DNA from: Myxococcaceae bacterium
Lineage (GTDB): Bacteria; Myxococcota; Myxococcia; Myxococcales; Myxococcaceae
Reading direction: 5' to 3'
Length of the DNA stretch: 64,000 nt
NCBI GenBank assembly: GCA_016793095.1
Contig: JAEUJQ010000083.1
Span: 1 to 64,000, forward strand
Shown here: positions 16,373 through 26,974 of the stretch, piece after piece
How positions within the stretch are numbered: position 1 is the stretch's first letter
Layout of the letters: every line of letters starts with the position of its first letter
The notes under the pieces: model-generated
Told to the model about the DNA's origin: nothing
Database searches by the model: none
The model's input: only the letters and a program-made list of their open reading frames with translations
Program-made: the position numbers and the translations under genes

Positions 16373-17599
16373 TCACGCCCGCGCCAGGCGGAGGATGAGG
16401 CCCTCGGCGAAGGCGATGCTGCGCTCCAGCTCGGCGGGATCGAGGTGACGCCAGGTGTCGGTGGGCCAGTGGTAGTTGCGGGGCGCGCCGATGACGGGGT
16501 CGATGCATGTCAGCGTGACCGCGGGGAAGCCACGCACGAGGAAGGGCAGGGCGTCGGTGGCGCCTGACGGGATGACGTACGTGGTGACCGGCGGCTGATC
16601 GGGTCGCGCGTCGTTCTCGGCCTTCACCGCGTCCTTCAGGGACGGCGCGATGGGGATCGGCCACAGCTCACCCTCTTCGAGGATCCGCAGCGTACCGGCC
16701 GCGAGCCCGTCGAGCCCGAGCACGATGGTGTCTTGCGGCGTCCACTCCCGGGTCTTCATCACCTGCTCGGCGAGCCGGAGCGCGCCCCCGGTCCCGGCCT
16801 CCTCCGCCCCCGAGATGACGATGACGAGCTCGACGTCGTCAGGCAGCGTCTCCTCGAGGCGATAGGCGAGCTCGACGCAGCCGGTGCAGCCCGAGAGGTT
16901 GTCGCCCGCGCCCGGCACCACGCGGTTGCGGAGCACGACGTCGAGGTTCAGCAGGAAGGTCAGCGTCGCGGGGATCGTGATGACGCCGCGAAGCCACGTC
17001 GGCGCGCTCCACACCCCCGCGCCCGCCAGCGCCTCGACGATCGCCATCACCGCGACGCTCGCCGTCGCCAGCCCCAGCTGCTTCTTGAACCACCCGAGGC
17101 CGCGGGGCGGCTGCTTCGTCGCCACCGTGAGGAGCGAGGGGTGGAACATGAGGCCCGTGTAGGCGGCGTCCGAGTGCGCGATGAGCACCACGCGCTTGCG
17201 CCTCGTCCCCTTCGCGGGCCGGGTGGCGAGCAGGTTCTGTGAGTGGATGGACGGGAAGAGGCTGCGGATCAAGAGCGCCCGCCGGTTCGACTCGAGCGCG
17301 TAGGACAGCGCGACCAGCGCGTGCAGCGCCGCGCCGACGAACGGCGCCGTGAGGCCGACGCCCGTCGCCAGCGCCGCGAGGCCGAAGTGCACCATGAGGT
17401 TCGCGTACAGGCTCTGGCTCCATCGGAAGGGTCGCCAGTCGAGCTGGTAGCCCAGGCTGGCGAGCTCACGCCCGAGCAGCTCCTGCGCCGCCTTCTCCGT
17501 CGGCGTGCCGGTGAGGCGGCGCCCGAGCTCTTCGATGGCTCGAATGCGCTCGAGGGGCGTCTGGCGGCTCGGGGCCTGCGCGTGCGGTGCGGCAGTCAT
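16373..17599 (-). CDS. Membrane-anchored M28-family metallopeptidase
   Basis: A 408-residue protein read from ATG 17599 (a GTG nine bases upstream is possible). Two hydrophobic segments near residues 70-110 (LMVHFGLAALATGVGLTAP, GAALHALVALSYAL) and another pair near 185-225 make it a membrane protein with the peptidase parts outside or inside the membrane. The M28 zinc sites are visible: His in VVLIAHSDA, the bridging Asp in GAGDNLSG, Glu-Glu in ISGAEEAG, Asp in VLGLDG and His in YHWPTDTWRHL. It probably acts as an aminopeptidase or carboxypeptidase; the substrate is unknown. It lies 67 bases after the TlpA gene on the same strand. Confidence 0.85.
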   Translation of the reverse strand: MTAAPHAQAPSRQTPLERIRAIEELGRRLTGTPTEKAAQELLGRELASLGYQLDWRPFRWSQSLYANLMVHFGLAALATGVGLTAPFVGAALHALVALSYALESNRRALLIRSLFPSIHSQNLLATRPAKGTRRKRVVLIAHSDAAYTGLMFHPSLLTVATKQPPRGLGWFKKQLGLATASVAVMAIVEALAGAGVWSAPTWLRGVITIPATLTFLLNLDVVLRNRVVPGAGDNLSGCTGCVELAYRLEETLPDDVELVIVISGAEEAGTGGALRLAEQVMKTREWTPQDTIVLGLDGLAAGTLRILEEGELWPIPIAPSLKDAVKAENDARPDQPPVTTYVIPSGATDALPFLVRGFPAVTLTCIDPVIGAPRNYHWPTDTWRHLDPAELERSIAFAEGLILRLARA

Positions 17600-17666
17600 C
17601 CGTTGCACATAGCCCGGACCCGCGCACCTCCGGGAGTCGTTCTTCAGGGCGCCCCGAGGCCAGGGC

Positions 17667-18212
17667 TCAAGGAGGCCCGACGAGCCGATCGATCAGCCCG
17701 ACGACGCTCGCTTCGGTCGTCGCACCGCGGAACCGCTGCACCAGCCGCCCCTCGCGATCGACGATGAAGAGCGTGGGCAACGACGTCACGCCGTAGCGCG
17801 CCTCGATCTCGGGGTCGCCGAGCACGGCGAAGCGCTCGAGCCCCGGCACCTGGCGGGCGAACTCCGTCACCAGGGGGATCTGCCCGGGGGGATCGTCTTC
17901 GCTGATCGCGACGAAGGCGACGCCGCGTGACTCGTACCGCTTCGCCATCGCGACCAGCCACGGCATCTCGGCGCGGCACGGCGGGCACCAGGTCGCCCAG
18001 AAGTCGATGACGACGATCTTCCCCCGCAGGTCGGCCAGCCGCACGGCGCCCCCCTGCAGCCGCGGCAGCTCGAACTCCGGTACCCGCCCGGCCTCCGGCG
18101 CGTCACGGGGCGCGGCGCGGGGCTGCGAAGCGAGGAAGCCCGCCACGCCCAGCCCCACCGCGATGGTCACCAGGGCCACCCCGATGACGGTGCGCTGCCG
18201 CTCGTCGCTCAT
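17667..18212 (-). CDS. TlpA-like thiol-disulfide oxidoreductase
   Basis: A 181-residue protein. The ATG at 18212 overlaps the stop of the 74-residue gene (ATGA). Residues 9-28 form one membrane anchor (VIGVALVTIAVGLGVAGFLA); the thioredoxin domain is therefore periplasmic. The active site is FWATWCPPC with Cys76 and Cys79, and the cis-Pro lies in TSLPTLFIVD. TlpA-type proteins reduce or shuffle disulfides in exported proteins. It is the last gene of a cluster of exported proteins rich in Cys, which are plausible clients (inference). Confidence 0.9.
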   Translation of the reverse strand: MSDERQRTVIGVALVTIAVGLGVAGFLASQPRAAPRDAPEAGRVPEFELPRLQGGAVRLADLRGKIVVIDFWATWCPPCRAEMPWLVAMAKRYESRGVAFVAISEDDPPGQIPLVTEFARQVPGLERFAVLGDPEIEARYGVTSLPTLFIVDREGRLVQRFRGATTEASVVGLIDRLVGPP

Positions 18213-18433
18213 CGGGCTCCGAAGATCGGCCGCAGGCGATCGACCGCCGCCTCGAGCTCGGGGGAGACTTCGCCGGCGCGGGCGGTCGCGTCGGCGGCGG
18301 TCCACAGCGCCCGCACCTCGTCGCGCGCGTTGAATAGCAACAGGCTCAGATCGACCCTCGGGCCGCCCCGCCTCGTCAGCCGCGGGTCCTTCGCGAGCTT
18401 CTCGCTCAGCTCGTCGAACAGGCTCGCGCGCAT
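18209..18433 (-). CDS. Small 74-residue protein of unknown function
   Basis: A short gene whose ATG shares a base with the upstream stop (TGATG) and whose stop overlaps the start of the TlpA gene (ATGA). The product (MRASLFDELSEKLAKDPRL, LLFNARDEVRALWTAAD, ELEAAVDRLRPIFG) looks helical and charged with no signal peptide, so it is probably cytoplasmic. The tight overlaps on both sides, and codon use like its neighbours, argue that it is real. No family is recognised. Confidence 0.65.
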   Translation of the reverse strand: MRASLFDELSEKLAKDPRLTRRGGPRVDLSLLLFNARDEVRALWTAADATARAGEVSPELEAAVDRLRPIFGAR

Positions 18434-19320
18434 CAGAGCCGCCAGCTGAGCCGCAGGCCGGCCACGAAGTCATGCCGATCGTTTCCGACGACGGGCAGGC
18501 TGCCGCCGACCTCGATGCCCAGCGCCGCGACGCGGAAGCGCAGCCCCACCGACGGCGCGAGGTAGCTGACGCGGCCCACGCGCCCGTTCACGTCGAGCAC
18601 CAGGCCGAACCAGGTCGTCGGCTGCCACATCGCGCCGATCAGCGCGAAGCCGCCCACGCGGGGATCGGGGCGCGCGCTACCGACGCCGAGGGTGAGATCG
18701 ACGCTCGCCGCGCCGTGCACCTCGAGCCAGCTCTTCGGTCGCCAGCTCACCGAGTGCCCCACCTCGGCGCCGACGAGCCGCATGCCCGGGATCTCGAAGG
18801 AGGACGGCAGCAGCACGCGCCCCGTGAGCGCGCCCGACAGCTTCTCGGTGTCGTACAGCACCTGCGAGACGCCCGCCGTCATGTGGCCGAGGGTGAGCTG
18901 GGTGGTGGTCAGCGTCGCGTTCTGCGTGAAGCCGAAGGAGATCGCCTCGAGCTGCGCGAAGAGCTCGGTCGTGGGTCGCACCGCCCACGAGCCGAACAGC
19001 AGGCCCTGGGCGCCGACGTTCCCGTAGAAGTTCGGAGTGTCGATGATGCCGAGCCCGCGCACGCCCAGGCCGAGCTCGTTGCGGGGGCAGGCGCGGCGGC
19101 CGCTCGCGAGATCGCTCTCGACGTAGCCCATCGCGATGGGGCCTTCGGGCAGGCCGCGCGCGTCTTCCGTGACGCAGCCGCCGCGGAGCACGGGGGCAGG
19201 CGTGTTCGGTGGAGTCGTCGGCGTCGCGGCCTCCGTCGCCACGGGAGCGGGCGCCGCAGCGGGCTCCTGCGCCGCCGCGGTCAACGAGCCGAACGTCAGG
19301 GCGAGGACGAGCGCTCTCAT
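18433..19320 (-). CDS. Putative outer-membrane beta-barrel protein
   Basis: A 295-residue protein with the signal peptide MRALVLALTFGSLTAAAQ, then a Pro/Ala/Thr-rich linker. From about residue 50 the chain shows alternating strands (NELGLGVRGLGIID, TTELFAQLEAISFGF, LVGAEVGHSVSWRPKSWLEV, FGLVLDVNGRVGRVSYLAPS) and ends FVAGLRLSWRL, as expected for a beta barrel of 8-12 strands. Its start overlaps the stop of the metallohydrolase gene (TGATG). No transport family can be named. A secreted or outer-membrane position beside the metallohydrolase lipoprotein is inferred. Confidence 0.65.
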   Translation of the reverse strand: MRALVLALTFGSLTAAAQEPAAAPAPVATEAATPTTPPNTPAPVLRGGCVTEDARGLPEGPIAMGYVESDLASGRRACPRNELGLGVRGLGIIDTPNFYGNVGAQGLLFGSWAVRPTTELFAQLEAISFGFTQNATLTTTQLTLGHMTAGVSQVLYDTEKLSGALTGRVLLPSSFEIPGMRLVGAEVGHSVSWRPKSWLEVHGAASVDLTLGVGSARPDPRVGGFALIGAMWQPTTWFGLVLDVNGRVGRVSYLAPSVGLRFRVAALGIEVGGSLPVVGNDRHDFVAGLRLSWRL

Positions 19321-22289
19321 CAGCGGCCTCCCTTCGCGCCGGGCGCGGTGAACTCCCCATCGCCGTTCCGGTCGAGGAAGAAGGGGTTCGTGAAGGCCAG
19401 CGGGTAGCCGAGCGTGATGTTCGCGAAGTCGAAGCCGGCCTCGCCCTCCTTCGGCAGGGGAGGATCGGCGATGGGCCCGATCTTCGAGGTCGCCGGGCTG
19501 ACGTCGCTCGCGTCCACCTTGCCGTCGCCGTTGTTGTCGGTGGTGTCGGGCATGCCGTCGGGCGCGCCGCCTTGACCGCCGCCGAGATCGCCCGCCAGCA
19601 TCAGCGGCTTGCCCGCTTCGATCGACAGCCAGGCGTCCCCGGTCACCCCGGCCAGCAGCTCGGCCAGCGGCACCTCGCCCTCGTAGCGGACGAAGCTGCC
19701 CGAGGTCGCGAAGGGATCGGCTGGCAGCGGCAGCTCCTTCAGCGTCTTCACGATCTGCCCGTTCACCACGAAGCGCACCTCCTGCACGGGGATCCACGGC
19801 GCCGACGTCACCTTCACGCGCACCTTCGCGTCGGCCTTCGGCGCGAAGGTGGTGGTGCTCCAGGCCCGCGCGACCCCCGACGCGTCCTCGATCGTCGCCT
19901 CGATCACCGGGCCGTTGGAGCCCAGGCTCCGACCATCGAGCACCGCGCGGTTGAGCACGTTGACGTCGAACGCGGGCCCGGATTGCGTGGCCGCGGTCAC
20001 GAGGTTGAAGGGCATGCCGACGGTGTTGTCGGTGAGGCTGTGCGAGTCGGAGTTCGCGGTGCCGACTTTGCGGTGGCCCTGGTTCAGCACGTACCACCAG
20101 AAGGCGCGGTACTGCAGGAACAGCCCGTTGTCGGTGCCGTTCATCACCTCCTGCGCGTGGTGGCCGTGGTTCGAGAACGACGCGCCCTGCGGCGTGCGCA
20201 CGTAGATGCCGAGGTTGGTGCCGTCGTCGGCGGCGGGCAGATCCTGCCGTAGATCCATCGCCAGCGCGCGCGGGAAGCCGAGGTCGCGGCCGAACTCCGC
20301 CACCGCCCACGGGTGATTCAGCTCGATGACGGGGGTGCCGGTGAAGAGCGGCTTCGTGCGCTCGAAGAGCATGCCCGGCTCCACCAGCTCGTCGTACGGG
20401 CCGCCGTTGCGCGGCAGCGACGGGTCGTACTTGAGCGGCCACATGTTGTAGTGGCCGATCACCAGCGGGAACGACGACTTCGGGATGAAGAGGAAGGGGA
20501 TGTGCCCGGTCGTCTCGAGGCCGATCACCGTGGACAGGCGCTGGCTGAGGCCGAGCTGCTCGACCACCTTCGAGTAGTCGTAGACGACGTCGTGATCGGT
20601 GCCGACCGCCACGTCGAGATCGCTCGCCGAGAACGACAGCACGCGATCGAAGTCGGGGATGGACGAGTCGAAGCTGGCCGCGCCGTGGATGTGGAAGTCG
20701 GCGGTGATCGTGCCCGTCGGCTTGAGGCCGGCGAGGCGGGTGAGGTTGAGGGAGACCGTCGAGGCGCCCGGCATCACCGTCACCGTGTCGCGCCCGAGCG
20801 ACCACCACGGCCCGTGGAACGCGTAGACGTAGTAGCGACCGAGCGGCACCTCGGCGGTCGACGTGCCCTGGCGCACCAGCACCCGGTTGCACGCAGGCGA
20901 TGCCCCGGCCGGGGTCCCCAGCCACGGCGCGCACGAGGTGAAGCGGCCGTGCAGCGAGCCCAGGACCTTCTCGCGCTCGGCGGCGTCCACGGGCACCACG
21001 AAGATCTCGGCGTCGAGGCCCTGCATCGTCGCGCTGTCCCTCACCTGGAACGTCACCGCGCCCGTTGACGGCAGCACGAACGTCCCGAAGTCGGCGCCCT
21101 CGGCCACCGCGGTGAACTCCCGCTCCACCACCTTGCGGCCGAAGCTGTGCACCTCGACGACGTAATTCTTCCCGGCCGGCACGCGCGCGGTGAAGGTGCC
21201 GTCCGCCGCGGGCACCACCTGCGTCCACGGGCTGCGCTGCTCGGGCGACGTGGCCGCCGCCCCTTCCGAGATGAGCACGCTGGTGGTCCGCTCGGAGTCG
21301 AGCGCGAGCGCCATCGGCCGCTCCACCTTGCCCTTCACCGTCGCGTACGCCTCCTTCGTCACCTGGCGCCGCACGTCCATCGCGACGTCGATCGCGCCGC
21401 TCACGCCCTTCGAGTCACCCACCGAGATGAAGCGCTCGAAGACGAGGTAGCCGCGGGGCGGTACGCGGGTGCGGGGGAGGCCGGCGGCGCTCACCTGATC
21501 GCTGTTGAAGCCCTCCATCGAGGACGCCGTGCAGCTCGTGCTCGCGATCGACGAGACCCGGTCGTCGGTCGAGTGCCCGGCCGCCGCGAGGAACGGGAAG
21601 GTGCGGAAGACCGAGTTGATGGTGAGCAGGTTGAACGACGCGTGGGTGAAGCCCGAGCCCGCGCCGGGCGTGAAGGGCAGCGCCTCCCGGCCGCTCCAGT
21701 AGTAGCCGTCCACCAGGCTCCACAGCTCGAGATCGTTCGAGGCGTTGATCAGCTCGGTGCGCACGCGCACGCCGCGATCGCAGGGCCGCAGCTCGTAGCG
21801 GGTGAAGGCCAGCACGTCCTTCCGACCGTCCAGCGTCCCCCGCAGCTCGACGGCCACCCGCTCGGGCCGCTCGTCGATCACCCTGAGCGCGGTGTAGCGG
21901 ATCGCGTCGCCGGGCAGGATGCCGACGACCTGGAAGATGTTGTTCACCGAGTCCTTCGCCTGACCGCGCGGCGCGAGGTCGAGCACCGAGCCGCCGTTCG
22001 GGTCGAGGTAGTTCTGGGTGCCCAGCCCGGCGATCACCACGTCGGCGAAGGTGTTCGACAGCTTCACGTCTCCGCGGGCGCCAATGGCATTCCAGCCGCC
22101 TGGCCGCTGCGACGGGCCGGCGATCGTCTCGATCGACAGCTGCTCGGCCACGCCTCCGCAGTCGAACGCCACCTTCGGGCACGGCGACGCCACCGTGCAC
22201 GACGCCTCACCCGACAGACAGCTCTCGTTGGAGCACCCGGCGCCCCCGACGAGGAGCACCACCAGCAGGACTGCGAGCCTCACTGCCAT
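19320..22289 (-). CDS. PHP-fold metallohydrolase lipoprotein (CehA/McbA type)
   Basis: A 989-residue lipoprotein; MAVRLAVLLVVLLVGGAGC is a clear lipobox and fixes the start at 22289. The mature N-terminus is Cys-rich. The first 500 residues are beta-rich, with sugar-binding-like stretches and carboxypeptidase-regulatory-like domains (KVERPMALALDSERTTSVLI, GTFTARVPAGKNYVVEV). Near residue 530 the PHP metal site begins: TADFHIHG, VGTDHD (near 566), ELNHPW and TANSDSHSL, which match CehA/McbA-type metallohydrolases. The end has Asp loops of calcium type (NNGDGKVD, DRNGDGEF). It overlaps the preceding gene by ten bases and the next by one (TGATG). Substrate unknown; a phosphoester or carbamate ester is possible from family knowledge. 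Confidence 0.8.
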   Translation of the reverse strand: MAVRLAVLLVVLLVGGAGCSNESCLSGEASCTVASPCPKVAFDCGGVAEQLSIETIAGPSQRPGGWNAIGARGDVKLSNTFADVVIAGLGTQNYLDPNGGSVLDLAPRGQAKDSVNNIFQVVGILPGDAIRYTALRVIDERPERVAVELRGTLDGRKDVLAFTRYELRPCDRGVRVRTELINASNDLELWSLVDGYYWSGREALPFTPGAGSGFTHASFNLLTINSVFRTFPFLAAAGHSTDDRVSSIASTSCTASSMEGFNSDQVSAAGLPRTRVPPRGYLVFERFISVGDSKGVSGAIDVAMDVRRQVTKEAYATVKGKVERPMALALDSERTTSVLISEGAAATSPEQRSPWTQVVPAADGTFTARVPAGKNYVVEVHSFGRKVVEREFTAVAEGADFGTFVLPSTGAVTFQVRDSATMQGLDAEIFVVPVDAAEREKVLGSLHGRFTSCAPWLGTPAGASPACNRVLVRQGTSTAEVPLGRYYVYAFHGPWWSLGRDTVTVMPGASTVSLNLTRLAGLKPTGTITADFHIHGAASFDSSIPDFDRVLSFSASDLDVAVGTDHDVVYDYSKVVEQLGLSQRLSTVIGLETTGHIPFLFIPKSSFPLVIGHYNMWPLKYDPSLPRNGGPYDELVEPGMLFERTKPLFTGTPVIELNHPWAVAEFGRDLGFPRALAMDLRQDLPAADDGTNLGIYVRTPQGASFSNHGHHAQEVMNGTDNGLFLQYRAFWWYVLNQGHRKVGTANSDSHSLTDNTVGMPFNLVTAATQSGPAFDVNVLNRAVLDGRSLGSNGPVIEATIEDASGVARAWSTTTFAPKADAKVRVKVTSAPWIPVQEVRFVVNGQIVKTLKELPLPADPFATSGSFVRYEGEVPLAELLAGVTGDAWLSIEAGKPLMLAGDLGGGQGGAPDGMPDTTDNNGDGKVDASDVSPATSKIGPIADPPLPKEGEAGFDFANITLGYPLAFTNPFFLDRNGDGEFTAPGAKGGR

Positions 22290-23371
22290 TGATTCCACCC
22301 GTTCGCTGCGTGGCAGGCGTCCCCGATGAGATCGAGGTGCACCTGCGGGTTCGACTGCTTGATGGTCGCCATCGACTGAAACGCCTTGATCCCCTCGAGG
22401 CCCGTCACGGCGGCGTCGAGCAGGGCCTTCGCACGGTTCACCGCCAGTTGCTGCTCCTTGTTCGGCTTCCAGCCCGTCTCGTTCTTCAGCCTCGCCAGCG
22501 TCTCGAGGAAGTGGCCGTAGAACTTCACCTGTTGCGTGAGGATCTGCAGCTTGAATTGCGGGGCCTGCTGGAGCGCCGCGTCGTACTGCCGCCGCTCGGA
22601 CTCGAGGCGGTAGAAGAGCACGGCGACCTGCTTGTCGAGGCGCGGGCCCCACCGCTTCTTCACCTCGGGGAAGCGCGCCCAGCCGAAGACCGCCTGCATG
22701 AAGTGCAGTCCCCCACAGGGGTGGGCGTAGATGCCCTGCTTGCGTTTGGGCACCTCGGGCAGCCCCTTGTCGAGCCCCTCGGTGAGCTCGGCCTGGTTCT
22801 TCTCGAGCGCGGTGAGGGCGTCGTCCATCACGGTGTCCAGCGGGACGCGGCCCAGCTCGGTGGTGATCGTCGCGCCCGGCGTGCCGGTCTGCGAGAGCAG
22901 ATCGATCGTCCACGCGCCGTCCTTCCAGTAGTCGTCGCTGGCGGGCACGTGGCGGAAGCCCTTCTTCACGCCGTCCACCAGCTGCTGGAGCGTCACCTGG
23001 CCCCAGCGCGTCGGGAAGGCGGTGGTGAGGGGCAGCTTCGCGAGCACGAACGTCTTGGTGAGCAGGTTCGAGTGCGGCTCGATCGGCAGCTTGTCGGGGC
23101 CGTACCGCAGGTAGCCGAAGGCGCTGCCAGGGCCCACTCCGCCATCGGGCAGCAGGTTGCGCTCGAGGAAGTCCTTCGTGATCACCTCGGTCGCCTTGCG
23201 GCCGTCACTCGCGAGGAAGGAGGGCCCGTACGCCGTGATGCCGTGCGCGAGCGCCCAGGGGTTCTTCGGATCCGCCGCGTGCACCAGGCACTGATCGAGG
23301 AGCGCCTGGTGCGCGTGCGGCCTGGGCGCCTGGCTCAGCGAGGCGATCAGCAGGAGGGTGGCGACAGTCAT
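22280..23371 (-). CDS. Exported protein of unknown function, first gene of the cluster
   Basis: A 363-residue protein with a signal-peptide-like start (MTVATLLLIASLSQAPRP). The chain looks mostly helical. It has a striking HPCGGLHFMQAVFGWARF segment near residue 220, in which the Cys and two His could bind metal or form an active site. No family is recognised. The 3' end overlaps the start of the PHP metallohydrolase gene by ten bases, so it heads a five-gene run transcribed to 17667. Palindrome and promoter-like sequences lie upstream. Confidence 0.7.
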   Translation of the reverse strand: MTVATLLLIASLSQAPRPHAHQALLDQCLVHAADPKNPWALAHGITAYGPSFLASDGRKATEVITKDFLERNLLPDGGVGPGSAFGYLRYGPDKLPIEPHSNLLTKTFVLAKLPLTTAFPTRWGQVTLQQLVDGVKKGFRHVPASDDYWKDGAWTIDLLSQTGTPGATITTELGRVPLDTVMDDALTALEKNQAELTEGLDKGLPEVPKRKQGIYAHPCGGLHFMQAVFGWARFPEVKKRWGPRLDKQVAVLFYRLESERRQYDAALQQAPQFKLQILTQQVKFYGHFLETLARLKNETGWKPNKEQQLAVNRAKALLDAAVTGLEGIKAFQSMATIKQSNPQVHLDLIGDACHAANGWNQWQ

Positions 23372-23408: not shown

Positions 23409-23471
23409 CTGCACGAAGCCTCGTGCAGGGCGCACATGGTCGTATATAGAGCCACCCGGCCGGTCACTGAA
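23409..23471 (-). promoter_or_regulatory. Promoter and operator candidate for the exported-protein cluster
   Basis: Reading leftward, TTCAGT (23466-23471) and TATATA (23443-23448) are separated by 17 bases. About eight bases past the predicted start of transcription lies a perfect palindrome, CTGCACGA AGCC TCGTGCAG (23409-23428). It could be a repressor site or an RNA hairpin. The same interval also holds the promoter of the divergent surface-protein gene at 23507. Confidence 0.45.
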
Positions 23472-23506
23472 GGGCGAGGGAGCCGCCCGCCGAGGAGTCT
23501 GTCCAG

Positions 23507-26500
23507 ATGACGTCGTACAGCCGAATGGTGGCGCTCTCGATCGCCTTGCTCTCCGGGGGGGCGGCGGCGCAGTACGTCGCCACGACCCAGGCGATCAGCG
23601 GGTACCCGACGCTCACGAACCCGCAGGCGATCACCCTCACGGCGCCGAACAGCGTGTCGGACCGTGGCCGGGCAGACGTAGCGCTGCCGTTCACCTTCCA
23701 GTTCTACAACCGGCGCTACACCAGCATCACGGTGACGGCGAACGGCATGGCGTTCTTCGAGCAGTCCACCAACCCGACCGACGACTTCCCGTCGAACGTC
23801 GCCATTCCCTCGACGAACGAGCCGAACGGCGTGATCGCTCCCTTCTGGGAGGATCTCGACGGCAACAACGGCACCAGCGCGATGCGGCAGCAGGTGGTCA
23901 CCGGGCCCAACGGCCAGGGGCTCGCCATCGAGTGGAAGGACTGGAACCGGCGCTTCGGCATGTACACGCTGAACTTCCAGCTGCGGCTCTGGGAGAACGG
24001 GGTGATCGAGTTCTTCTACGGGACGATGCTGGGCTCGGGGCAGGCGATCTCGGCCACCATCGGCATCGAGTCGCCGACCGGCGCGCTGGGCACCAACGCG
24101 CTGCCGCTCGCCTCCTGCCTCAACCGCACCGTGCCGACGATGCCCGTGCCCTCGCACGCGCACTGCGACATCTCCAGCTTCGACCCGATGTCCACGGGCT
24201 CGCCGATCACCTACGTGCGCTTCGGCCCACCGCCTGGCGTCGATCTGCTGCCCTCGAGCCTGCGGGTGACGGGCATCGCGCAGGCAGGCACCGATCTGCA
24301 GCTCAGCGCGGAGGTGATCATGCGGAACTTCGGCACCGCGACCTCCACCCCCTTCAACTATCGGCTCTTCCTCTCGGAGGACACGCTCTTCGACTCGCCC
24401 ACCGCCGACGCGGGCATCGCCGACAGCGAGATCGTCACGGGAGCGCTGCCGCCCGGGCCCTTCACCCTCGCGCCCAACGCGTCCGTCACCCACTCGACCA
24501 CCGGCGTCGCGCCGAGGCCGGCCTCTGGCACCTTCTACGTGCTCGCGGTGGTGGATGAAGGCAACGCCGTGGCCGAGACGAACGAGGTGAACAACGTGCT
24601 CGCGACCTCGACGCCCTTCTTCGCTGGCATCGATCTCGTCGCCGAGCGCGTGAGCGGACCCGCTTCGGCTGGCCCTGGCGACCCGGTCACCATCTCGTAC
24701 GCGGTCACCAACCAGGGCTTCGACCCTGCCGGTGTGGTGCCCTTCAAGATCCTGCTGTCGGCGGACGCCGTCTTGTCGATGGACGATCGAGAGGTCTACT
24801 CGGGGACCCGGGCGGTGCAGGGCGGAGAGAACGTGACGGCGCAGGTCACCTTCACGCTGCCCGCCACCGTGCCGGCTGACGACTACTACGTGATCCTCGT
24901 GCTCGACGACGGGCCCAACGCCGGCGTGGTGGTCGAGGTGTCGGACGCGAACAACCAGGCGGTGAGCCGGGCCCGCGTGGTGGTGCGTCAGGCAGATCTG
25001 ATCATGGACCGCATCCGCGTCGCCCGGCCGGTGCTGCCCTATGAGACGGCGACCGCGGCCTTCTTCGGCGAGCCGATCAGGGTCGAGGCGACGGTGCGCA
25101 ACCAGGGCGGCGCGACCGCCCCCAACGTGTCGGTCGTCTTCTTCCTCTCGGACAACGAGACGCTCAACGGCCTCACCGACCCCTTCGTCTGCGAAGAAGG
25201 CCCGTTCGTGCTCGCGCCTGGCCAGAGCCGCGCGGTCAGCAAGACGTGCACCGTCCCCACGCGCTCGGTGACCAACCAGGTGCTGCAGCGTGGGCCGTAC
25301 TTCTTCTTCGCGGCGGCGGTGGCGGCGGGCCTCGCCGAGACGAACCCTGGCAACAACTTCGCCAAGGCCGAGCCGGTGCTCGTGCGCAGCCCTGCGCCGA
25401 ACCTCGTGCCGATCAACCTGCGTGGGCCGAATCGCATGGCCGTCGGCGAGATCTTCGCGGTCACGCGCACCATCACCAACAACGGCAACCGGCCGTCGCC
25501 CAGCGTGAGGTACCGCTACGTGCTGTCGGCGAACACGATCGTCACCGCCGATGATCCCGTGCTGCCCATCGTGACCATGACGGGCGAGGTGAACGAGCGC
25601 TCGGTCACGCTGGCCGTCGATCAGCAGGACACGGCGACCGAGTTGATCCGGGTGCCCAGGCAGCTCGCGCCGGCGACGTACTTCCTCGGGGTGCTGGTCG
25701 ACCCCGGCGGTCTCGTCGACGAGGTGGACAAGGCCGACAACGGGCTCGCGGGTCCGGTGGTGCAGGTGGCGGCGCAGTCGCTGGGGCTCGACCCTCCGTT
25801 CCTCACCGACGGCCTGCTCAACCAGCCCTACGTCGCCGAGCTGAGCGCGCTTGGCACCAACGAGCCCACCACCTTCTCGGTGAAGGACCCGGCCGAGCTG
25901 CCGCCGGGGCTCAGCGTGGCGATGGGCGGGCAGATCACCGGCACGCCGACCCGCACGGGTGCGTACGCCTTCACCATCGTCGTCACCGCCGGCTCGCGCA
26001 CGACGGAGGCGCGCCGGGGCCTCAAGATCTCCCGGCCCACGGCGTCGCTGGTGCTCGTGAGCCCCGTGCTCCCGCCTCCGGCGCGGCTGCTGCCGTACGA
26101 GTTCCAGCTCGGCGCGCAGGGTGGGCTCGGCCCGTACCGCTACGTGGTGACGTCGGGTCAGCTGCCGGCGGGCCTCGAGCTGAGCGAACGCGGACGGCTG
26201 ACGGGCACCCCCAACGGAGCGCTCGGCACGTCGAGCACCATCACCGTCAGCGTGATCGACACGGTGGGGAACTCCGACTCCCGCGCGTACACCATGACGG
26301 TGGTTGACGCCTCGCCGTTCCGCATCACCAACACCTCGCTCGCCGACGGCATCTTCGGGCAGCAGTACCTCGTCGATCTCGTGGCGCAGAACACGAGCGG
26401 CGCGCCGATCTCGCGGCCGGTGCGATGGCGGGTGCTCGAGGGCGCCCTGCCGCCGGGCCTCGCCCTCGAGGACACGGTGACGGAGCGCGTGATCCTCTCG

Positions 26501-26974
26501 GGGAGCCCCACCAGCTCAGGGCTGTTCCGATTTCGCCTCGAGGTGATGGACTCGCAGGGGCGGTCTGACTCGGCGACCTACACCGTCTTCGTCGCCGGAG
26601 CGGGCATCAGCATCTCAGGCGACGTCCCGAAGTCGCTCGATCGCGGCGCGACCGTGAACGCGCAGCTCAACCCGAGCGGGACGGTGACCGACGGCGTCTT
26701 CCTGCTGCTCGACGGCCAGCTGCCGCCGGGGCTCACGCTCTCGCGCAGCGGCCTGGTGAGCGGGACCATCGACGCCGACGCGCCCTATCGCAGCTACACG
26801 ATGAACGTCGGCTACGGGGCCTCGCGTGAGCAGCTGGCGACGATGCGTCCGTTCCGCATCGACGTGGAGCCGCCCGGCGCCGGCGGGCGTCGTGGCTGCG
26901 CGTCGACCGGTGGCGTCGGGGCCTCGGCCCTCATCGCGCTGCTGGGCCTGCGACGCCGGCGTCGTTCGCGCTGA
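23507..26974 (+). CDS. CARDB/Ig-repeat surface protein with MYXO-CTERM-like tail
   Basis: A 1155-residue exported protein. The N-terminus is a signal peptide (MVALSIALLSGGAAAQ). Residues 30-240 form a nidogen-like/beta domain (GRADVALPFTFQFYNRRYTS, WEDLDGN, LNFQLRLWENGVIEFFYG). Four CARDB-type adhesion modules follow (each with a pattern like DLVAERVSGPASAGPGDPVT and VDEVDKADN), then three or four putative Ig (He_PIG) modules (GLLNQPYVAEL, PPGLSV.., GTPTRTGAYAFTIVV). The tail GRRGCASTGG, a hydrophobic stretch and LRRRRRSR match the MYXO-CTERM sorting signal known in myxobacteria, which leads to surface anchoring. It is likely an adhesin or structural surface protein. Confidence 0.85.
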   Translation: MTSYSRMVALSIALLSGGAAAQYVATTQAISGYPTLTNPQAITLTAPNSVSDRGRADVALPFTFQFYNRRYTSITVTANGMAFFEQSTNPTDDFPSNVAIPSTNEPNGVIAPFWEDLDGNNGTSAMRQQVVTGPNGQGLAIEWKDWNRRFGMYTLNFQLRLWENGVIEFFYGTMLGSGQAISATIGIESPTGALGTNALPLASCLNRTVPTMPVPSHAHCDISSFDPMSTGSPITYVRFGPPPGVDLLPSSLRVTGIAQAGTDLQLSAEVIMRNFGTATSTPFNYRLFLSEDTLFDSPTADAGIADSEIVTGALPPGPFTLAPNASVTHSTTGVAPRPASGTFYVLAVVDEGNAVAETNEVNNVLATSTPFFAGIDLVAERVSGPASAGPGDPVTISYAVTNQGFDPAGVVPFKILLSADAVLSMDDREVYSGTRAVQGGENVTAQVTFTLPATVPADDYYVILVLDDGPNAGVVVEVSDANNQAVSRARVVVRQADLIMDRIRVARPVLPYETATAAFFGEPIRVEATVRNQGGATAPNVSVVFFLSDNETLNGLTDPFVCEEGPFVLAPGQSRAVSKTCTVPTRSVTNQVLQRGPYFFFAAAVAAGLAETNPGNNFAKAEPVLVRSPAPNLVPINLRGPNRMAVGEIFAVTRTITNNGNRPSPSVRYRYVLSANTIVTADDPVLPIVTMTGEVNERSVTLAVDQQDTATELIRVPRQLAPATYFLGVLVDPGGLVDEVDKADNGLAGPVVQVAAQSLGLDPPFLTDGLLNQPYVAELSALGTNEPTTFSVKDPAELPPGLSVAMGGQITGTPTRTGAYAFTIVVTAGSRTTEARRGLKISRPTASLVLVSPVLPPPARLLPYEFQLGAQGGLGPYRYVVTSGQLPAGLELSERGRLTGTPNGALGTSSTITVSVIDTVGNSDSRAYTMTVVDASPFRITNTSLADGIFGQQYLVDLVAQNTSGAPISRPVRWRVLEGALPPGLALEDTVTERVILSGSPTSSGLFRFRLEVMDSQGRSDSATYTVFVAGAGISISGDVPKSLDRGATVNAQLNPSGTVTDGVFLLLDGQLPPGLTLSRSGLVSGTIDADAPYRSYTMNVGYGASREQLATMRPFRIDVEPPGAGGRRGCASTGGVGASALIALLGLRRRRRSR

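Follow-up and report, generated by a model that had tools for sequence, protein, structure and literature searches.

Few partnerships between a lipoprotein and a beta-barrel in the outer membrane are known, among them SusCD, Slam with its lipoproteins, and LptDE. The CehA/McbA carbamate hydrolases, represented by CehA of Rhizobium sp. AC100 and McbA of Pseudomonas sp. C5pp, are known mainly from pesticide breakdown. Four histidines are needed for the activity of CehA (PMC8292978). In channels of the COG4313 family, a stretch at the N terminus lies inside the barrel, and the proposed role of these channels is the uptake of hydrophobic molecules (PMC4493636). FapF forms a plugged trimer that exports amyloid protein (PMC5557850).

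We analyzed a locus that encodes a CehA/McbA-type lipoprotein next to a predicted beta-barrel, in a stretch of 64,000 nucleotides from a bacterium of the Myxococcaceae (the window; Table 1). A preliminary description had reported five coupled minus-strand open reading frames, and we found these, their lengths and their overlaps all as described. The overlap of g1 and g2 is 10 bases, the g2/g3 and g3/g4 junctions are both TGATG, and the g4/g5 junction is ATGA. Because homologues exist in relatives, we conclude that all five are real genes: within the genus, g1 was 72-81% identical and g2 79-85% identical, and g4 and g5 were 69% and 75% identical, respectively, in one relative. Inspection of the sequences showed Sec signal peptides on g1 and g3, a lipobox on g2 and a membrane anchor on g5. 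There was no export signal on the 74-residue g4, so, contrary to the preliminary description, not all of the five products are exported.

We searched with g1, g2, g3 and g4 against 145 genomes of the order, and with profiles of g1 and g3 against 195 genomes of the phylum. No curated family in Pfam or NCBIfam matched g1, g3 or g4, and searching by sequence for solved structures of g1, g2 and g3 gave nothing usable. A literature search, within the library covered, found no paper on this gene set and no described system of the same composition, in agreement with the preliminary description, which knew of no named counterpart; we found none for the combination of a PHP lipoprotein and a barrel. 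g1 and g3 are unnamed families; the pairing of a lipoprotein with a barrel is in itself already known.

Table 1. Features of the locus, with positions in the window.
Feature	Position	Strand	Description
g5	17667..18212	-	181 aa; membrane-anchored TlpA/ResA-like thioredoxin; local passenger in two genomes
g4	18209..18433	-	74 aa; without signal peptide; local passenger outside the conserved unit
g3	18433..19320	-	295 aa; 12-stranded outer-membrane beta-barrel (predicted)
g2	19320..22289	-	989 aa; CehA/McbA-type PHP metallohydrolase lipoprotein
g1	22280..23371	-	363 aa; exported protein, unnamed Myxococcota family
Inverted repeat CTGCACGA-GGCT-TCGTGCAG	23409..23428	.	between the non-coding block and g1
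Near-invariant non-coding block GGGCGGCTCCC..CGCCCTTCAGTGACCGGCC..GGCTCTATATACGA	23440..23488	.	divergent promoter region, g1 versus CARDB gene
CARDB/He_PIG repeat protein	23507-26974	+	1155 aa; divergent from g1

The conserved g2-g3 module

The conserved core of the locus is a two-gene module, g2 and g3, that is smaller than the five-gene cluster. The two genes were adjacent in all 37 of the checked genomes that hold g2 (31 Myxococcaceae and six from other families of the Myxococcota, a phylum of predatory bacteria). True orthologues of g2 and g3 were present in the same 31 of 96 Myxococcaceae genomes and were neighbours on one contig in 31/31. Outside the order, the g3 profile matched one genome in each of six families (L180-L185), and every match lay directly downstream of a g2 orthologue. 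Genes resembling g3 but standing without g2 were seen in a single other family of the order (f3), at one or two per genome and with no g2 neighbour (L093-L095, L192, L193).

The g2 stop and the g3 start overlapped by 1 or 4 bases at 25 of the 26 junctions that we read. These were the window, 19 Myxococcaceae loci (18 with the overlap and one with a 1-base gap) and the six distant loci, all with the overlap; in L180 and L185, the overlapping g3 start reads into a signal peptide that the gene caller had missed. Translational coupling at this junction would allow g2 and g3 to be made in matched amounts. Pairwise distances of g2 and g3 were highly correlated over 26 genomes (r = 0.96), although high values can arise from shared ancestry alone. 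Because the couplings of g2 to g3 and of g1 to g2 recur across genera, and that of g2 to g3 also across families, we conclude that both are beyond chance.

g2 is a PHP metallohydrolase of the CehA/McbA type. Residues 529-883 matched NF038032 (CehA/McbA) with 85.5 bits (curated cut-off of 80), orthologues scored 92.7 and 102.5 bits, and paralogues in the same genome also exceeded the cut-off. The general PHP family PF02811 gave no match in the g2 of the window, and the orthologue in L181 reached 19.5 bits versus a gathering score of 26.4. The PHP ligands (H533, H535, H566, E592, H613, H659, D748 and H750) were identical in an alignment of the window g2, orthologues from seven families and four paralogues from the same genome. 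The lipobox reads LVGGAGC19, with a hydrophobic signal before C19, which was invariant in an alignment of 15 sequences.

g2 resembles CehA and McbA in that it is exported and its metallohydrolase domain, of the PHP type, has all the His, Asp and Glu ligands. In contrast to them, it is a lipoprotein, roughly 1000 residues in length, whose PHP domain is preceded by a long N-terminal region; it has eight conserved cysteines besides the lipidated one and a Ca-binding-like tail (DGMPDTTDNNGDGKVD, near the C terminus), and it is encoded in a conserved operon with a barrel. The g2 orthologues are also set apart from the paralogues by the eight extra cysteines, by the Ca-binding-like tail (DGxPDTxDNNGDG) and by an insertion that lies between E592 and H613.

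Among the paralogues sampled, the window genome has no fewer than four other lipoproteins of the CehA/McbA family, each about 1000 residues long (contigs C30, C51 (248620), C66 and C80; L106-L109). The four have lipoprotein signals and no g3-type partner. The family is expanded in the genus, and it was absent or nearly so in the Myxococcus and Corallococcus genomes searched.

In one row of genes in the window genome (L107:4130-10740, contig C80), a second PHP lipoprotein is encoded alongside an alkaline phosphatase resembling PafA/PhoY and a barrel resembling Porin_O_P. The PHP paralogue follows the Porin_O_P-like gene in L107 and also in L113 (genome G136), and in L107 the phosphatase gene precedes both. 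The Porin_O_P match scored 17.7 bits, which is below the curated cut-off of 20.9. This row is possibly a phosphate-scavenging operon. The arrangement gives a hint that the pairing of hydrolase and channel recurs and that one or more members of the family scavenge phosphoesters. For g2 itself, it is a lead and not proof.

The g3 product is predicted to be a plugged, 12-stranded barrel. An AlphaFold2 model (pLDDT of 81) had a barrel of about 12 strands, and its top structural match was FapF (PDB 5o65; Z of 23.4, rmsd of 2.3 A over 225 residues), with the COG4313 channel Pput2725 (4rl8) matching at a Z of 22.3 (rmsd of 2.5 over 224 residues). Other matches were the porins KdgM and NanC (Z of 18-19.5) and autotransporter barrels (Z of 16-21). 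A plug-like N-terminal segment before the first strand (residues 59-82) has 10 of the 32 invariant residues, and two cysteines, C49 and C78, are conserved. The first 60 residues are Pro/Ala-rich and of low confidence, with no coiled coil predicted in the model.

Comparison with the two closest barrels shows both similarities and differences. g3 is like Pput2725 in its 12 strands, similar length and conserved N-terminal segment before the first strand. However, the two are about 9% identical, and Phenol_MetA_deg (PF13557), which we take to be the Pfam counterpart of COG4313, gave a weak match in one of 19 g3 family members (E = 0.0033) and none in the g3 of the window. In addition, g3 is strictly paired with a PHP lipoprotein, and no such pairing is described for COG4313 in PMC4493636. 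g3 is like FapF in being a plugged 12-stranded barrel, but it is not in a Fap operon and has no predicted periplasmic coiled coil. Hydrophobic molecules are the proposed cargo of COG4313 channels and protein is that of FapF, an exporter, so neither the direction of transport nor the cargo can be read from the fold of g3.

The exported protein encoded by g1

g1 is more widely kept than g2 and g3 and is often coupled to them. It was found in 86 of 96 Myxococcaceae genomes, as a single copy in each and with few split matches. It adjoined g2 in 27 of the 29 genomes in which contig ends allow a judgement, often with an overlap of 10 or 4 bases. The exceptions were G085, which has no g1, and G086, in which g1 is apart and on the opposite strand. 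In a separate case (L034:6136-7583, contig C2 of G134), 1.4 kb lie between g1 and g2, flanked by a repeated 3' end of g1; this is either an artefact of assembly or an insertion accompanied by a duplication.

The functional link of g1 to the module is weaker than that between g2 and g3, because g1 is in 86/96 Myxococcaceae genomes versus 31/96 for g2 and g3, and in other families it is elsewhere in the genome. Outside the order, g1 and g2-g3 were unlinked even where both were present (G161, G163). Corallococcus and Myxococcus have kept g1 without g2 or g3. In these loci (L155:3898-10122 in Myxococcus and L137:4028-10014 in Corallococcus), g1 comes after a cluster of genes for an MFP-RND efflux pump and a MarR regulator, on the same strand.

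A pattern scan for g1 across 84,980 species returned only myxobacterial or deltaproteobacterial records and one record labelled Comamonas. That record (L157, BNCN01000003.1, labelled Comamonas sp. KCTC 72670) has a g1 region of the Myxococcus type and is probably a mislabelled or misassigned genome.

The g1 product is predicted to be an alpha/alpha toroid. The model was of high confidence (pLDDT of 93.9). A Foldseek search with it gave no match below E = 0.001, and VIA-align returned alpha/alpha toroids: transcobalamin (Z of 13.6), squalene-hopene cyclase (13.1) and Dfg5 (12.8). The likeness to these proteins is in the overall helical toroid, with a Z of about 13. There is no sequence relation, the invariant residues are specific to g1, and the Z values are in the range common for helical repeats; since values up to about 13 are common for such repeats, we claim only the fold class.

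The invariant residues of g1 in 42 homologues (28-80% identical) include H100, W154, C219, H223, R255, E259, K283, H287 and E290. Judged from the sequences, the His/Cys/Glu set among them (H100, C219, H223, E259, H287 and E290) suggests a metal or catalytic centre. Up to three cysteines are conserved. C219, which is invariant, and C353-H354, which is nearly so (C353 is Ala in the distant L166), are suggestive of the Cys and Cys-His zinc ligands of LanC. A search of 19 family members for Pfam profiles, LANC_like included, gave no match with an E value of 1 or less, and LanC was absent among the structural matches listed, which excludes nothing.

Flanking genes and the divergent promoter region

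g4 and g5 are lineage-specific additions. Of the genomes examined, the window genome and G133 alone have them after g3, which indicates that the disulfide-maturation protein that the preliminary description assigned to the system is not part of it. g5 itself is a thioredoxin-type protein of the TlpA/ResA kind, with 81 bits against AhpC-TSA (cut-off of 26), the CxxC motif WCPPC within WATWCPPC, and an N-terminal membrane anchor that looks uncleaved. Relatives of g4 in G136 and G053 are elsewhere, with no g5 match nearby. In G132 (L032:8749-10793) and G136 (L036:2476-4376), the slot after g3 is occupied by a gene for a GMC oxidoreductase together with a small partner gene, and in other members of the genus nothing was recognised there. 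The small partner gene in L032 has a Tat-like signal. We also considered the downstream M28 peptidase gene (16373-17608) as a sixth member and rejected it, as it had no match in any of 40 related loci.

Gene order in relatives, which had been proposed as a check, was kept for genes 1-3 and not for genes 4-5. What holds of the proposed envelope hydrolytic unit is a PHP/CehA lipoprotein, above the NF038032 cut-off, with a partner modelled as a 12-stranded barrel; the five genes do not hold as one system.

The 135 bases between g1 and the CARDB gene are probably a shared promoter-operator region of two divergent transcripts. The block within them (Table 1) was near-invariant in seven genomes of the genus, in which the identity of g1 was down to 72%. 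The arms of the inverted repeat (GCACG/CGTGC) were kept in most relatives, and the repeat is a possible operator. The block was rejected as a regulon motif, as its core occurs just once in the genome when up to 3 mismatches are allowed. An Rfam search of the region gave no credible match, a scan for sigma-70 promoters and terminators gave matches at chance level, and the RNA fold of the g1 leader was not above that of shuffled sequences (z of 0.03). The CARDB gene was syntenic with g1 in many Myxococcaceae and was replaced in Archangium and Myxococcus. Its product ends in a MYXO-CTERM-like sorting tail (GCAST...LLGLRRRRRSR).

Possible roles of g2 and g3

We tentatively favor the view that g2 and g3 work as one unit, an outer-membrane lipoprotein hydrolase with a dedicated channel, in the cleavage and uptake of a substrate. 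g2, a large PHP metallohydrolase, would be anchored by its lipid in the outer membrane and would act outside the inner membrane, where it would cleave an ester or phosphoester. g3, as a dedicated, predicted plugged 12-stranded channel, would pass the substrate or product of g2 across the outer membrane. In the Myxococcaceae, g1 would usually be co-expressed with the unit and may share its substrate, acting on it in the periplasm. A physical lipoprotein-barrel complex of a previously undescribed kind, in which the hydrolase sits on its own plugged barrel that imports the product or delivers the enzyme to the surface, would be conserved across the Myxococcota and joined by a new toroid family in the Myxococcaceae; we give this somewhat less than an even chance.

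The main rival, which we regard as rather unlikely, is that g3 functions like Slam (type XI secretion), translocating its cognate lipoprotein g2 or holding it on the outside of the outer membrane, so that the cargo would be the enzyme. The obligate one-to-one pairing of g2 and g3 and their stop/start overlap across the phylum are consistent with this, and about 52% of Slam homologues adjoin lipoprotein genes (PMC5449769). The barrel gene g3 is likewise beside one lipoprotein gene (37/37 genomes), with the role of that lipoprotein as cargo only putative. Of the structures that match g3, the nearest is FapF, which exports protein, and barrels of autotransporters are among the others. However, Slams have an N-terminal TPR domain and a DUF560 barrel, described as 14-stranded (PMC5449769), whereas g3 has 295 residues, no TPR domain and 12 predicted strands, and none of 19 g3 family members had a TPR or DUF560 match. 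In addition, the four PHP paralogues with lipoprotein signals in the same genome have no g3-type partner. It is quite improbable that g3 exports, in the manner of the Fap system, a polypeptide other than g2, such as an amyloid or a protein of the matrix. No structure matched g3 better than FapF, but neither a C39 peptidase (FapD) nor an amyloid family was found among the five genes and two flanking genes, and the Pro/Ala-rich start of g3 has no predicted coiled coil.

The remaining readings concern the operon as a whole. Gene overlaps are frequent in compact operons, and the outer neighbours of the locus are freely exchanged, both of which are expected if unrelated envelope proteins are simply co-transcribed with no functional interaction. 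We consider this improbable, as the g2-g3 pair persists in seven families amid differing surroundings, which is hard to explain without a shared function. A surface hydrolytic system of all five genes with its own disulfide-maturation thioredoxin is largely refuted by gene order, and we consider it very improbable. The tight overlaps in the window favor it, and the conserved cysteines (eight in g2 beyond the lipidated one, two in g3 and up to three in g1) would make an oxidoreductase useful. However, these cysteines are kept in other genomes that have no local tlpA, g4 and g5 adjoin g3 in two genomes only, and g4 has no signal peptide.

If the proposed unit of g2 and g3 is correct, then a strictly paired hydrolase and barrel found throughout the phylum would be a further lipoprotein-barrel partnership, and it would provide a native setting for the CehA/McbA hydrolases. 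The g1-g2-g3 trio is present in cultured Archangium. The g1 family is an unnamed exported myxobacterial protein that is widely kept and has an obvious candidate active site.
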